64,000 nt of DNA from Bauldia sp. (lineage in GTDB: Bacteria; Pseudomonadota; Alphaproteobacteria; Rhizobiales; Kaistiaceae), in the NCBI GenBank assembly GCA_022841545.1, contig JALHRF010000001.1:1-64000 (forward strand), given 5' to 3'. Of this stretch, positions 1,224-23,842 are shown piece after piece. Below the pieces are notes generated by a model. It ran no database searches and was not told the DNA's origin. It worked only from the letters and a program-made list of their open reading frames with translations. The position numbers and the translations under genes are program-made. Every line of letters starts with the position of its first letter. The first letter of the stretch is position 1.

Positions 1224-1642
1224 GAGAACAACCCCGACAGGATGGCGAAGTAGGATCCGTTCGAGGGGCCGGACGTGCGGCGGACGCTGATGTCGATATC
1301 GATGACCCGGCCGATGCCGTGGGCGTCGAGATAGGTCGAGCGCTCCATCACCCGTTCGATCACCACCCAGCCCATCAGCGCACCATCGCCGCGCATCAGG
1401 TACTGCGGGCGGCCCGACGCGCGGGCCTGGTGGAGTTTCTTCAGGTCGCCGAGACCCCCGAAACGATGCGGGAAAAGCCGGGCGTGGATGGCCCAGGTCT
1501 CGGGGCCTTCGCCGACCCATTCGAGCGGTGGCGACGCGCCAACCACTGGCTTCTCGGCGAAGCTGGTCTCGTGGGCGTGATCGTAGTCGGTGGCGTTGAA
1601 CGGCTGGACCTCGAACTGGATCGGTCCGAGGGTCATCAGCAT
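1220..1642 (-). CDS. Phage tail protein U (gpU-like)
   Basis: MLMTLGPIQFEVQPFNATDYDHAHETSFAEKPVVGASPPLEWVGEGPETWAIHARLFPHRFGG. Confidence 0.8.
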   Translation of the reverse strand: MLMTLGPIQFEVQPFNATDYDHAHETSFAEKPVVGASPPLEWVGEGPETWAIHARLFPHRFGGLGDLKKLHQARASGRPQYLMRGDGALMGWVVIERVMERSTYLDAHGIGRVIDIDISVRRTSGPSNGSYFAILSGLFS

Positions 1643-4107
1643 CAGGCGAACCTCAATCCTGTGTCGGCATAGACGCCGCGGAAGAGCTCGCGGACTTCCC
1701 GGCGAAGAACCCGGCGCACCTCGGCGGCGACGGCATCGGCATCGGCGGCGCGGGTATTGTTGAAGTGGAACACCGGGGCGACGGTGATGCCGTGGCCCGA
1801 CGCGAAGCCGGTTCCGGAGGGGTGTACGTACCCGGATCGACTGGGCGTGATCAGCTCTGGACCCTCCTCGCCGACGAGATAGCTCCCGCCGGCGGACACT
1901 GGCCCGCCCTTGGCTCTGAGTGCATCGATGCCGAGCTGCTGGGCCATGTCGCCCTTAGCTGCCCGGTTCGGCGTTTCGGTTGCACCGCCGCCAAACCCGA
2001 AGAAGCCCTTCACCGCGGCGGCGGCGTCGTTGATCGGGGCGAGAACCTCGGCGATCTTGCCGTCAATCCAGGCCACCAGGTCGGCGAAGACCTGGACCAT
2101 CCCGTCCCACAGTGCCTTGATCAGGTTGTAGCCGGCGGTGAAGAAGTCGGCGGTGAAACGGGCGATGACATCGACGGCGCCGGAGATCGCGGTCGCAACC
2201 CGGTTCGGCAGATCGGTCAGAGCCGCAAGGAAGCCGCCGGGGCCGAACAGGCCTGTGATGGCCGAGAGAATGCCAGCGATCCGCTGATCGATGGCCGCTT
2301 TGAGGCTGGCGAAGGCCCGGGTCATCCCATCCCAGAGGGCCTGGACGAGCCTGCCACCGGCCTCGGAGAACGCCGTGGCATATCCGGTCAGGGTGGCGAC
2401 GGAGTCTGCGATCGCCGCTCCGACCTTGCCGGGCAGTTCGACCAAGAGGGTCAAGAACCCTCCTACAGCTTCGCCGGCTACGCGGCCCCATGTCCGCCAC
2501 TCCTCGCTGGTGGCGTTGATCGGCCCGAGCAGATCGTTGATGGCACTGAACAGCGACCGGAACAGATCCACGATCGGTTCGATGATGGGGACGACGGGCG
2601 CAAAGGCGGCGGCGAAACCTTCGGCGAACCCGGCGAAGAACGACTTGAGGCCCTCCCAGTTGTTGCGGATGAAGAGCGCAGCGGCGCCGATCGCCGCGAC
2701 CGCGGCGGCAACCGCAGCCAGCGGCACGGCACCGACCGCGGCGACAGCGCCAAGCGCAACCCCGAGGCTCCGAACCGCGGAGACTGCGGCGAGGAGTCCG
2801 CCCTTGCCAAGCAGCCCGACAAACGACAGGGCCGAGATCGCGCCCCTGAGCGCGATGAAACCTGCCGCGGCGGCAAACACTCCGCCGGTCAGCTCCGGAA
2901 ACTGCTGGATCAGCCGTGTGATACTCTCCAGGATCGGCAGCAAGGCCGCAGCCACAGCATTGAGTGCAGGGACGAGAGAGGCGCCGAGGGTCGACTGGAA
3001 GTTCGCCCAGGCGATCTGGAAGCTCTTCAACTTCTCCTCGCTGGTCGCCATCATCCGCTCGAAGTCGGCGTCGATGACACCCGAGGCGCCGGCCACTGTC
3101 TCCCGGAGCGCGATGTAGTCGTCCATCCCCTGAAGCAGCGGGATCAGGCCCTTCTGGACCTGGGCATCGGCGAAGAGCGTGCCAAGCTTCGAGAGATCGC
3201 CGTCGATCGCCTTGTCGATGGACCGGATCGCCGCCTCGAGCGGGCTCGCTCCCTCGGCAACCGCTTCCTTCAGCACCGCGTTGATGTCGATGCCGTACTT
3301 GGCGAAATTCTTGATCGCGTCGTTGGCGTTGATCTTCTGGAGGATGTTGTTGAAGTTGATCGCGGCCTCCGAGCCATCCGCCGCGGTACGGCGGACGATC
3401 TGCAGCGCTGCGGCGATATCGGCGAGCCCCCTGGCGCCCGTGAGCCCCTTGGAGCCCGCCAGCCCAGTGATCGCCGGCAGATACTGCGCCATGTCCTTCA
3501 GCTCGAACCCACCTTCCTTGCCGGCGAGCGCCATCATGTCGAAGGCTCGGGTCAGTTCTTCCGGGGCAAGCCCGAGATTGGAGATCGACGCGTAGCCGGC
3601 CTTCGACAGATCAAGGATATCGGCCTTGGTCGCCGTCGCCGCCTTGCCGATCGCCGGCATCGCCCGCGCCGCCCGGTCGAGGTCGAGGCCCATGCCGACG
3701 ATGAAGTCCTCGGCCCGGACAATATCGGCCGTGAACTGGTTCACCTCCCGGCCGCCGATCTTGGCTGCCTCGCCGACGGACCGGAGCTGGTCCTCGGACA
3801 GGTTCGCCTTGGCGCCGAGCTCGGCGAGCGCGGTCTCGAGCGCATTGGCCGCCTGGATCGGCGCGCTGATCGCTGACTTCAGCACATAGAAGGCGCTAAT
3901 CGCATCCATGACGCCGGCACGAGCATTGGCAATCGCGCGGTTGTTGCGGGTGATCGCGGCATCGAGACGCTCGCTGAAGGAGAGCGGCGCATTGTTGGCG
4001 GCGCGCACCGCGCCGGAGATGCCGCGGAGGCTGTTGGCGACGCCCCGAGCCGGGCCCGACACCCTGTCGAGGAGCTGGACGATCAGCTGTGAGGTGAGAT
4101 TGGCCAT
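1642..4107 (-). CDS. Phage tail tape measure protein
   Basis: 821 aa, helical N-terminus, long hydrophobic Ala-rich segments, position between tail assembly and gpU. Confidence 0.9.
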   Translation of the reverse strand: MANLTSQLIVQLLDRVSGPARGVANSLRGISGAVRAANNAPLSFSERLDAAITRNNRAIANARAGVMDAISAFYVLKSAISAPIQAANALETALAELGAKANLSEDQLRSVGEAAKIGGREVNQFTADIVRAEDFIVGMGLDLDRAARAMPAIGKAATATKADILDLSKAGYASISNLGLAPEELTRAFDMMALAGKEGGFELKDMAQYLPAITGLAGSKGLTGARGLADIAAALQIVRRTAADGSEAAINFNNILQKINANDAIKNFAKYGIDINAVLKEAVAEGASPLEAAIRSIDKAIDGDLSKLGTLFADAQVQKGLIPLLQGMDDYIALRETVAGASGVIDADFERMMATSEEKLKSFQIAWANFQSTLGASLVPALNAVAAALLPILESITRLIQQFPELTGGVFAAAAGFIALRGAISALSFVGLLGKGGLLAAVSAVRSLGVALGAVAAVGAVPLAAVAAAVAAIGAAALFIRNNWEGLKSFFAGFAEGFAAAFAPVVPIIEPIVDLFRSLFSAINDLLGPINATSEEWRTWGRVAGEAVGGFLTLLVELPGKVGAAIADSVATLTGYATAFSEAGGRLVQALWDGMTRAFASLKAAIDQRIAGILSAITGLFGPGGFLAALTDLPNRVATAISGAVDVIARFTADFFTAGYNLIKALWDGMVQVFADLVAWIDGKIAEVLAPINDAAAAVKGFFGFGGGATETPNRAAKGDMAQQLGIDALRAKGGPVSAGGSYLVGEEGPELITPSRSGYVHPSGTGFASGHGITVAPVFHFNNTRAADADAVAAEVRRVLRREVRELFRGVYADTGLRFA

Positions 4108-20773: not shown

Positions 20774-23700
20774 TCACCTGTTCAGTCGCGACGAGAGGCC
20801 GGCAAATCGGATCCGAAGGTTGGGGTCGGCTGCCGCATGTGGCGCGGTGTCCGCGATCCGCGCTTCGTTCACTTCTGCACCGGCCCTCTCGATCGGCCCA
20901 TCGCCCGACCGCACCACACCTTCCGGAATGCGCTGGACGTTGAGCGAGTAGCCGATCGCCATGGCCAGCGCCTCACAATCGAGAAAGTGGTTCTGTCGCG
21001 AACGCTGGACCCATTGCGGCTTGCCGGTCCCCGTGTCGACGACGCGCACCTCCGAGACCAGCTGCTTGCAGTAGTCCTCGTCGATATCGTCGGGCACGAT
21101 GAAGCTGCCCGGCTGGTCCATCGGCGTCCGGATCCGTGAAACCAGCAGCGACTTGAAGAAGTCGGTCGAGAGCCAGACCAGATTGATCGAGTAGGACGCC
21201 TGCTTACCCTTCGGCGTCACCTCGATCTTCGACACCCGATAGGGCGGCGACATCGTGGCGCGGCCCTTGGTCGGCGATACCAGCCAGGCATAGCGGCGCG
21301 TGAACTCGTAGACCTTGTGCTCGTCGCCGGCGTCCGGCTTGTTCGGCCGGAAGCCCGAGTCGATGAACACCCGCTCGATCTGCATGCCACCGATCGGCAT
21401 CAGCATCTGATCGGCGAGCGCGTTCCAGACCTCGTCATCGTCGGTCGGTCCGAACAGCTGGCCGCGATCGATCAGCCAGGATGTCCCCCGTGAGCCGAAG
21501 CCGCGGATGGTGTAGAAGAGCGAGAGCTTCTGGACGTCGACCGCCATCCCGAGACGGAGCACACCATCCGGAAGCTCCTTCATCCGGTAGGGCTGCCGCC
21601 GCTGGAGGATCTCCTGGTAGTCGAGGGCATCGCGTCCCGACGCCGGGGTGTAGCACTCGCCGAAGCCGGCATTGAGCGCGGTCTGCAGCTGATCGGGGTC
21701 TCCGGACGCAAGCGCCCGGACATATCGCTCGACCCGAGTGCCCCAGGTGACGAACGGGCTGGCCAGTCCGCTCGCCCAGAAGCTGAGCACCGCGTTCTCG
21801 GCCGGTTCGCCAAGAACGTTCCCGTCATCCATCCACTGGCCGGGCGCGATGTATAGGCCGCGGGCGTTCATCTCCGCCTTGTCGTCGTCCTCGTGCAGAC
21901 CCCCGCAATGCGGACACGCGAGCTGAGCGGACCTGGCGGCCTCGGCCGGCGTGGCATTCTCCGGCCAGCGCATCTGCTCGAAGCGCGGCACGAAATAACG
22001 ATCGCAGTGGAGGCAGGGCCAGCAGAAGTGATGCCGCGTACCCGACTGCCATAGTCGCCAGATCGCGCTCTCGACCGCCTCCGGATCGCCGACCTTCCAG
22101 AAGGTCAGACCGCTCCGCGCATCCAGTTCCGTCTCAATCAGACCCCGCGATGGCGTCGACGTGATCGCGGTCACGAAGTCGGCGTAGGTCTCGCCGCGGG
22201 CCTCGACCAGGCCAAGGGGATCGCCCTGGCCCTTCACGTTGGCGAGCATCTCGTCATACTCGTCGACCAGCGCCAGCGCTGCCGGGCTCGACTTGAGCGC
22301 CGCCGACGACCCGGCATGCGCGAGCCGCACTGGCACGCCGGCAACGATCTTCAGCGTCTTCTTCATCCGCCGACCGCGCACGACCTTGGCAGCCAGCGTT
22401 TCGGCCTCGTCGAGTAGGTTCATCAGCCGCGGTTCGAACTGGTCGGTCAGGAAGTCGCGGATCGGTCCGACATAGAGGATCGGGGCCGGCCGCTGGTCGA
22501 GGCGAGCGCCAAGGACATCGAGCAGGCCGTCAGTGTTGTGCGTCGGCACCATGCGGTAGCCGGCGAGGAACAGGTGCGAGGGACTGTCGACGCCGATGCA
22601 GCGCACCGGCACCGACGGGACCGCGGCAATCTCCCGGATGTACCGCAGCTCCGCCATATGCGGCCGGCTCCGCGAATGATGCACCGATCCCAGGGCGTCC
22701 GTCTTGCGCTGCAGCCGGAACGGCGACCGTTCGCGGTAGGCAAGAAGGGCGACGCAGTAGAATGGGGTCCGGTACTTCCGAGACAACCGCTCGCGAAATC
22801 GCGGCTTGAACCCGAGGCTCACGGCCAAGTCGAACGCCTGCAAAGCCAGCGATTCATGCTTGGAGCAGAATTCAGCGCGGCCCCGGCTGGCGCCACCATC
22901 GGTGTCCATGAGTCCCTGCAGCAGCGCCATCCTCTGCGCCGCCGACGCCCGGAGGTACTGGGCGGGAATGTGCTTGTTTACGATCTGGCCGAGCGCACGA
23001 AGGCGCGACGACAGGTTCTCCGGATCGCGCGGGCCGGCTCCCGGAGCCGAAAGCTGCACGTCCCATGCACCGGACGTCGTGGTTCCGTACCAGCGCGCTT
23101 TGGTCTGCAAGCCTTCGGCACTCAGCTCGCCCATCATGGCGTCGAAGTCATCGCGGCCGATGGTGATCCGCGCCGATCGGCTGTTGCCGTCACCAAGCCA
23201 CGCGCCGAGGACATACGGCCGGACCGGCAATTCTGCGTCGGGCAGGTCGAGCGCACCGGTCACCGGGATGGCGAAGCGCGCGGCACCGTTGCCGAGCATC
23301 AGCCCTTGGTTCAGCATCTGCTCGGTGGTCAAGGTCTCCTGGGAACGGCCACCGTCGCGCGCCCATCGATCGGTCGTTACCGTCCATAGGTGATCAGCGT
23401 CCGCGACAATCTTCTCACCATCGTCGAACGTCACGCGATAGCAGGGCCGGTCGGTCTGGACCGGGCTGACGATCACAACCCGGCACGGTGCGCCATGCTC
23501 ATCGAACAGCGTGTCACCGACCCGCACGTCGGCCATCGTCGTCCACCCCTCCGGCGTCGGCAGGGGCGTGTCGAGGGCCAGCGATTTCCCCATCTGGGCC
23601 CCGCAAACCAGTACCACCCGTTTGTGGAGCCCGGCATGAACAGCGCGGACGACCGGAATGACGTAAGGCGTCAGGCTCGGATCACGCGGTCCCGGCAGCC

Positions 23701-23842
23701 CTGACGTCTCGGCATAGACCCGGTTCGCCCGCGCCCATTCATCCGGCGGCAGCTTGGGGCTGGGCCTGAGGATCGCCGTGGCCAGCTCCCAGAGCTGCCG
23801 CCTTTTCAGCGGCTCGCTCGGAAAGGCGCGAGAGGACACCAT
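20774..23842 (-). CDS. Terminase large subunit (GpA family) containing an in-frame intein
   Basis: Extein parts VVLVCGAQMGK + TDGLLDVLGARLDQRPAPILYVGP and downstream GpA-like sequence; intein 22535-23584. Confidence 0.9.
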   Translation of the reverse strand: MVSSRAFPSEPLKRRQLWELATAILRPSPKLPPDEWARANRVYAETSGLPGPRDPSLTPYVIPVVRAVHAGLHKRVVLVCGAQMGKSLALDTPLPTPEGWTTMADVRVGDTLFDEHGAPCRVVIVSPVQTDRPCYRVTFDDGEKIVADADHLWTVTTDRWARDGGRSQETLTTEQMLNQGLMLGNGAARFAIPVTGALDLPDAELPVRPYVLGAWLGDGNSRSARITIGRDDFDAMMGELSAEGLQTKARWYGTTTSGAWDVQLSAPGAGPRDPENLSSRLRALGQIVNKHIPAQYLRASAAQRMALLQGLMDTDGGASRGRAEFCSKHESLALQAFDLAVSLGFKPRFRERLSRKYRTPFYCVALLAYRERSPFRLQRKTDALGSVHHSRSRPHMAELRYIREIAAVPSVPVRCIGVDSPSHLFLAGYRMVPTHNTDGLLDVLGARLDQRPAPILYVGPIRDFLTDQFEPRLMNLLDEAETLAAKVVRGRRMKKTLKIVAGVPVRLAHAGSSAALKSSPAALALVDEYDEMLANVKGQGDPLGLVEARGETYADFVTAITSTPSRGLIETELDARSGLTFWKVGDPEAVESAIWRLWQSGTRHHFCWPCLHCDRYFVPRFEQMRWPENATPAEAARSAQLACPHCGGLHEDDDKAEMNARGLYIAPGQWMDDGNVLGEPAENAVLSFWASGLASPFVTWGTRVERYVRALASGDPDQLQTALNAGFGECYTPASGRDALDYQEILQRRQPYRMKELPDGVLRLGMAVDVQKLSLFYTIRGFGSRGTSWLIDRGQLFGPTDDDEVWNALADQMLMPIGGMQIERVFIDSGFRPNKPDAGDEHKVYEFTRRYAWLVSPTKGRATMSPPYRVSKIEVTPKGKQASYSINLVWLSTDFFKSLLVSRIRTPMDQPGSFIVPDDIDEDYCKQLVSEVRVVDTGTGKPQWVQRSRQNHFLDCEALAMAIGYSLNVQRIPEGVVRSGDGPIERAGAEVNEARIADTAPHAAADPNLRIRFAGLSSRLNR
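22535..23584 (-). other. Intein (about 350 aa, Ser1...His-Asn / +1 Thr) with LAGLIDADG-type homing endonuclease domain
   Basis: Block A SLALDTPLPTPEGWTTMADVRVGDTLFD; DOD-like LGAWLGDGN and LLQGLMDTDGG; C-terminal LFLAGYRMVPTHN|T. Confidence 0.92.

Follow-up and report, generated by a model that had tools for sequence, protein, structure and literature searches.

Class 3 inteins are defined by Trp B:12, Cys F:4 and Thr G:5 (WCT), and Cys F:4 initiates splicing (PMC3196547, PMC5222942, PMC7664689). In mycobacteriophages the terminase is the commonest intein host, and the terminase inteins described there (TerL1-a to -e and TerL6-f) lie in the terminase ATPase domain, as does the intein reported here; TerL1-a separates Lys from Thr in the P-loop just as our intein does, and TerL1-c and -e were grouped with class 3 DnaB inteins (PMC5050341). 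The location is therefore not new, terminase P-loop GK|T inteins having been described in these phages (PMC5050341). The mycobacteriophage hosts named in that survey are Terminase_1 and Terminase_6 only (plus a terminase-like protein), whereas the present host is a lambda-type GpA terminase (PF05876/PF20454) (PMC5050341). Both class 3 inteins and P-loop inteins are thus already known from terminases, and a GpA host and a Ser at position 1 are minor variations. No paper on GpA inteins was found in the literature searched.

The class 3 DnaB P-loop inteins (M. smegmatis DnaBi1 and M. chimaera DnaB1; 6bs8, 6own, 6rix and 6riy) share with the intein described here the splicing blocks, the WCT residues, the final His-Asn and the predicted HINT fold. 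The M. chimaera DnaB1 equivalents of H65, W67, C329 and T348 are His65, Trp67, Cys124 and Thr143. The DnaB inteins differ in host (DnaB), residue 1 (Ala in those compared) and residue +1 (Ser), compared with terminase, Ser1 and Thr+1 in the present case. Our intein also carries a LAGLIDADG endonuclease, whereas the solved DnaB intein chains are of 128-146 aa.

The window (the whole stretch of 64,000 nucleotides that was analysed, from Bauldia sp.) contains a gene for a GpA-type terminase large subunit with a precursor of 1022 aa (20774-23842, minus strand, as for all features of this gene given below). We read the locus, with a probability of roughly 0.92, as a full-length class 3 LAGLIDADG intein in the GpA P-loop of a contractile-tailed prophage, and from this we infer splicing, DNA cleavage and a need for splicing in packaging. 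The evidence counted directly is the exact insertion, the empty alleles, the class 3 signature, the predicted fold and purifying selection.

The extein flanks match the Pfam families GpA_ATPase (PF05876, E = 6e-42) and GpA_nuclease (PF20454, E = 1e-54), and genes for a portal, a head maturation protease, a major head protein, a baseplate, a tail sheath and a tape measure follow downstream. The host protein is thus assigned to GpA with both domains and a packaging gene neighbourhood present, and the portal, head, baseplate, tail sheath and tape measure genes identify the locus as the packaging and structural module of a contractile-tailed prophage. The contig runs past the window to 135,611 bp and carries a second, related module: window positions 1-28757 and G000:C1:88631-116185 are collinear with 85-88% DNA identity, about 88 kb apart. 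For the prophage relative itself, window positions 1-25228 align with C1:88631-112882, likewise at 85-88%. That both prophages reside in one genome depends on how a single contig was assembled, in an assembly of 373 contigs with an estimated contamination of about 5%. In the terminase region, the clear difference between the two modules is the terminase intein.

The insert (22535-23584) corresponds to precursor residues 87-436, i.e. 350 codons or 1050 nt, in frame and with no stop codons. It lies between the Lys and Thr of the P-loop, CGAQMGK|TDGLLDV, separating an N-extein of 86 aa ending in VCGAQMGK (23585-23842, delimited by alignment to empty alleles) from a C-extein of 586 aa plus stop that starts with TDGLLDV (20774-22534, from the translation). 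With the insert removed, a GpA of 672 aa is obtained that aligns to empty copies with no gap at the junction. An intein-free GpA on the same contig (C1:109475-111493) shows 93% identity along all 672 aa, and the empty GpA of a same-genus genome (G003:C46) is 94% identical and gapless across the site, with identical residues over more than 30 positions around the junction. At the DNA level the match to the same-contig empty copy stops at window position 22526 and restarts at 23594, the two blocks being 17 nt apart in that copy. The segment is an insertion into GpA, as the same-contig and sister-genome empty alleles show. The preliminary description had placed a 350 aa intein exactly between the Lys and Thr of the terminase Walker A motif and had proposed that its removal rejoins CGAQMGK and TDGLLDV; the precise, gapless alignments bear out both statements. 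A search of the genome found the intein only once, and no relatives of it were found in 297 other genomes of the same order at E <= 1e-30.

Splicing blocks A, B, F and G, the terminal Asn and a Thr at +1 are present in the intein, and all of the motifs named in the preliminary description were recovered, namely SLALDTPLPTPEGW, LGAWLGDGN (residues 126-134), LLQGLMDTDGG (221-231), the final HN and Thr+1. The class 3 triplet consists of Trp67 in block B:12 (23384-23386; definition in PMC3196547), Cys329 in block F:4 (22598-22600; PMC3196547, PMC5222942) and Thr348 in block G:5 (22541-22543). His65 in block B:10 (23390-23392) is the predicted base of the class 3 triad, its role being assigned after PMC7664689. 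Asn cyclization is predicted for His349-Asn350 of block G (22535-22540), where His349 is nearly invariant, and Thr+1 (22532-22534), the Thr of the restored Walker A GKT, is the predicted branch-point residue. Two alignments, with 18 and 20 inteins, show no variation at H65, W67, C329, T348 or N350. The presence of the WCT residues and His65, and their invariance in relatives, place the intein in class 3, and this signature makes Cys329 the predicted first nucleophile. The nearest solved structures by sequence are class 3 DnaB inteins (6bs8, E = 9e-30; 6rix, E = 1.5e-29); an NCBIfam search returned weak matches only, to intein-containing radical SAM models.

Both LAGLIDADG helices are present, with D132 and D229 as their acidic residues, as are conserved lysines. 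Motif 1 (LGAWLGDGN, 23183-23209, by alignment) contains Asp132 and motif 2 (LLQGLMDTDGG, 22892-22924, by Pfam and alignment) the invariant Asp229; Lys204 in the invariant NKHIP (22973-22975) is a candidate block D catalytic lysine by analogy with the PI-SceI family. The segment itself matches Pfam LAGLIDADG with E = 1.8e-4 and a score of 22.1, just below the gathering score of 22.5, and in the alignment of 20 inteins LAGLIDADG_3 was found in 20/20 members (best E = 7e-10) and Hom_end in 16/20. An AlphaFold2 model calculated from the 20-row alignment has a pLDDT of 91.3 and a pTM of 0.90. In Foldseek searches it matched full intein-endonucleases (PI-SceI, with a query-based TM score of 0.77) and class 3 DnaB inteins (target-based TM scores of 0.78-0.83), so that the predicted fold is that of a HINT intein with a LAGLIDADG endonuclease.

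Among the window intein and its relatives in viral contigs L060 and L062, dN/dS was 0.04-0.11 (splicing part) and 0.11-0.22 (endonuclease part). These values are rough, since dS among the three orthologues approaches saturation (1.3-1.7), but purifying selection appears to act on both parts. It is unlikely that the intein is a decaying passenger which has lost splicing in a defective prophage. Selection on packaging is relaxed in a prophage, and one dead class 3 intein, Arth_1007, is known (PMC3196547), but all residues known to be needed are present here, including the Cys F:4 and His B:10 lost in Arth_1007, the reading frame is uninterrupted for 1022 codons, the model predicts an intact fold and dN/dS is low for intein and exteins alike.

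Residue 1 (Ser1, 23582-23584) is unconserved: Ala, Leu, Val, Ile or Ser is found at this position in the two alignments, and Ser occurs in 4/31 inteins compared (the present one, its two orthologues and Burrough gp216 of a mycobacteriophage of the Bxz1 group). Since WCT and H65 are invariant while residue 1 varies, the Ser1/Thr+1 pair does not define the mechanism, and Ser1 is probably dispensable for splicing, judging from these alignments. Tori and Perler reportedly tested a WCT intein with Ser1 (Catera Gp206) in 2011 and placed it in class 3. The preliminary description had presented Ser1 and Thr+1 as an unusual nucleophile pair; both residues are indeed there, but the class 1 reading of them gives way to class 3 in view of WCT and His65. 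Ser1 could still support a class 1 start, class 3 inteins being usually described without an N-terminal nucleophile, and residue 1 is Ser in the L060 and L062 inteins too, and a Ser in this position is able to serve in class 1 inteins (PMC4031507). Splicing by the class 1 route, with Ser1 as the first nucleophile and Thr+1 as the second, is nevertheless very improbable: the WCT triplet disfavours it, Cys F:4, Trp B:12 and Thr G:5 being kept in all aligned relatives alongside a variable residue 1 (A, L, V, I or S), the structures nearest by sequence are class 3, and Catera Gp206 is among the class 3 inteins that splice efficiently (PMC3196547). The earlier interpretation of a LAGLIDADG intein in Walker A therefore stands, with its nucleophile assignment replaced by the class 3 signature.

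80 GpA relatives were retrieved from viral contigs, and the insert was found only in L060/L061 (the same sequence where both overlap, and treated together) and L062, in each case with exactly 350 codons at exactly the same codon. A conserved GpA domain, which the preliminary description had set as its refuting test, has a negligible probability as an explanation of the segment, being refuted by the empty alleles: the 93%-identical GpA on the same contig, that of the sister genome and nearly all of the 80 viral relatives lack it without a gap.

The L060 and L062 inteins are orthologous, with 71-72% identity to the window intein. They share the GpA host, the P-loop site and the WCT residues with it, as do the distant inteins of L005 and L008, which differ in having Ala1 and an identity of only about 40-45%. 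A single origin of the GpA inteins is unsupported; the tree places L005 and L008 elsewhere with weak support and contains no supported clade joining them to the window intein. Compared with the Terminase_1 and Terminase_6 hosts of the published survey, GpA in the window, L005 and L008 is a modest extension of the host family. Class 3 inteins were also found at the P-loop GK|S site of DnaB-like proteins (L025, L026 and L028). In L005 (position 2186) the intein occupies the corresponding place in a P-loop of deviant sequence (SARVGY|TK), where no Lys precedes it.

Several other GpA loci showed particular features. In L060/L061 the intein-bearing gene, whose product is unusually diverged at its N-terminus, is preceded at a distance of about 1.3 kb by a fragment (238-369) with 63% identity to GpA residues 1-39. 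A same-genus GpA copy at G003:C124:70070-71765 (L133/L040) is without its first 131 codons; unrelated sequence directly upstream includes an ORF (L133 1850-2305, minus strand) that by eye looks like an HNH-type endonuclease, and inspection of about 6 kb revealed no N-terminal exon. L041 (IMGVR_UViG_3300002461_001045, 1497-3515) is identical in DNA sequence to the same-contig empty terminase over the codons compared, so that a common sample or population is its probable origin. The C-terminal end of the spliced protein (codons 621-650) is hypervariable among close relatives (about 17-50% nt differences).

About 45 codons around the insertion site occur as two haplotypes, M and S, that are discordant with the gene tree. 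Among 24 close relatives the M form is GAQMGKTDGLLD and the S form AAQSGKTE or SAQSGKTE; all intein-bearing alleles are M and the same-contig empty copy is S. Between the window gene and this copy 38/120 nt differ in codons 61-100, against a median of 10% per comparison interval elsewhere. Of the 33 amino-acid differences in codons 1-620, 13 lie within codons 61-97 (at most 11 in 20,000 shuffles); the C-terminal end (codons 621 onwards) is also variable between the two. On a tree built without the haplotype stretch, M/S changes at least seven times over all rows, at least four of these changes being forced by well supported branches, and a constraint holding the M alleles together was rejected (AU test, p = 1.3e-6). 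The invaded alleles lie on three separate branches and are all M; with three invaded lineages, the association of M with invasion is no more than suggestive. Compared with the window site over the surrounding 42 nt, empty M alleles show 3-8 differences, against 14-18 in S alleles.

From haloarchaea, a case of flanking residues being co-converted with an intein has been reported (PMC10643990). The 38/120 nt had suggested that the flanks entered the window allele by recent co-conversion. This was rejected, since the empty M allele of G003 has the flank residues of the window allele with ordinary synonymous divergence (17/120 nt); this match indicates that the flank state is older than the window allele. 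Homing-centred exchange, or ordinary recombination with an endonuclease restricted to M sites, would both give the M/S pattern, which fits homing-driven exchange or site resistance without proving either. We put forward only tentatively, as a possible but doubtful reading, that in this phage family the terminase P-loop region is a dimorphic locus shaped by homing, in which repeated invasion copied an M-type flank (CGAQMGKTDGLLD), many alleles lost the intein but kept the M scar, and S-type alleles (AAQSGKTE/SAQSGKTE) are naturally resistant.

For a class 3 intein in the GpA P-loop, the splicing steps proposed here are borrowed from characterized class 3 inteins. Cys329, activated by His65 and Thr348 and packed near Trp67, would attack the Lys86-Ser1 bond and take the N-extein as a thioester. 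The N-extein would then be transferred to Thr+1, cyclization of Asn350 would release the intein, and an acyl shift would give CGAQMGK-TDGLLDV with a normal Walker A motif. Since the insert separates the K and T of this motif, the terminase is expected to need splicing, and we infer that packaging requires it. Empty terminase alleles of the M type are the predicted targets of the endonuclease, and the intein would be copied into them after cleavage; the diverged S-type site of the second prophage's terminase may explain why it has stayed empty.

These results widen the host range of class 3 inteins to lambda-type GpA terminases and correct the chemistry, the key residue for splicing being predicted as Cys329 rather than Ser1. 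They also bring together naturally occurring alleles of one essential phage gene in three states (invaded, empty M-type and empty S-type), including an invaded and a diverged empty copy on one contig, a set that is useful for the study of protection by site divergence and of flank carry-over. If the reading as a dimorphic locus is true, an intein-bearing and an immune empty terminase can share one genome.
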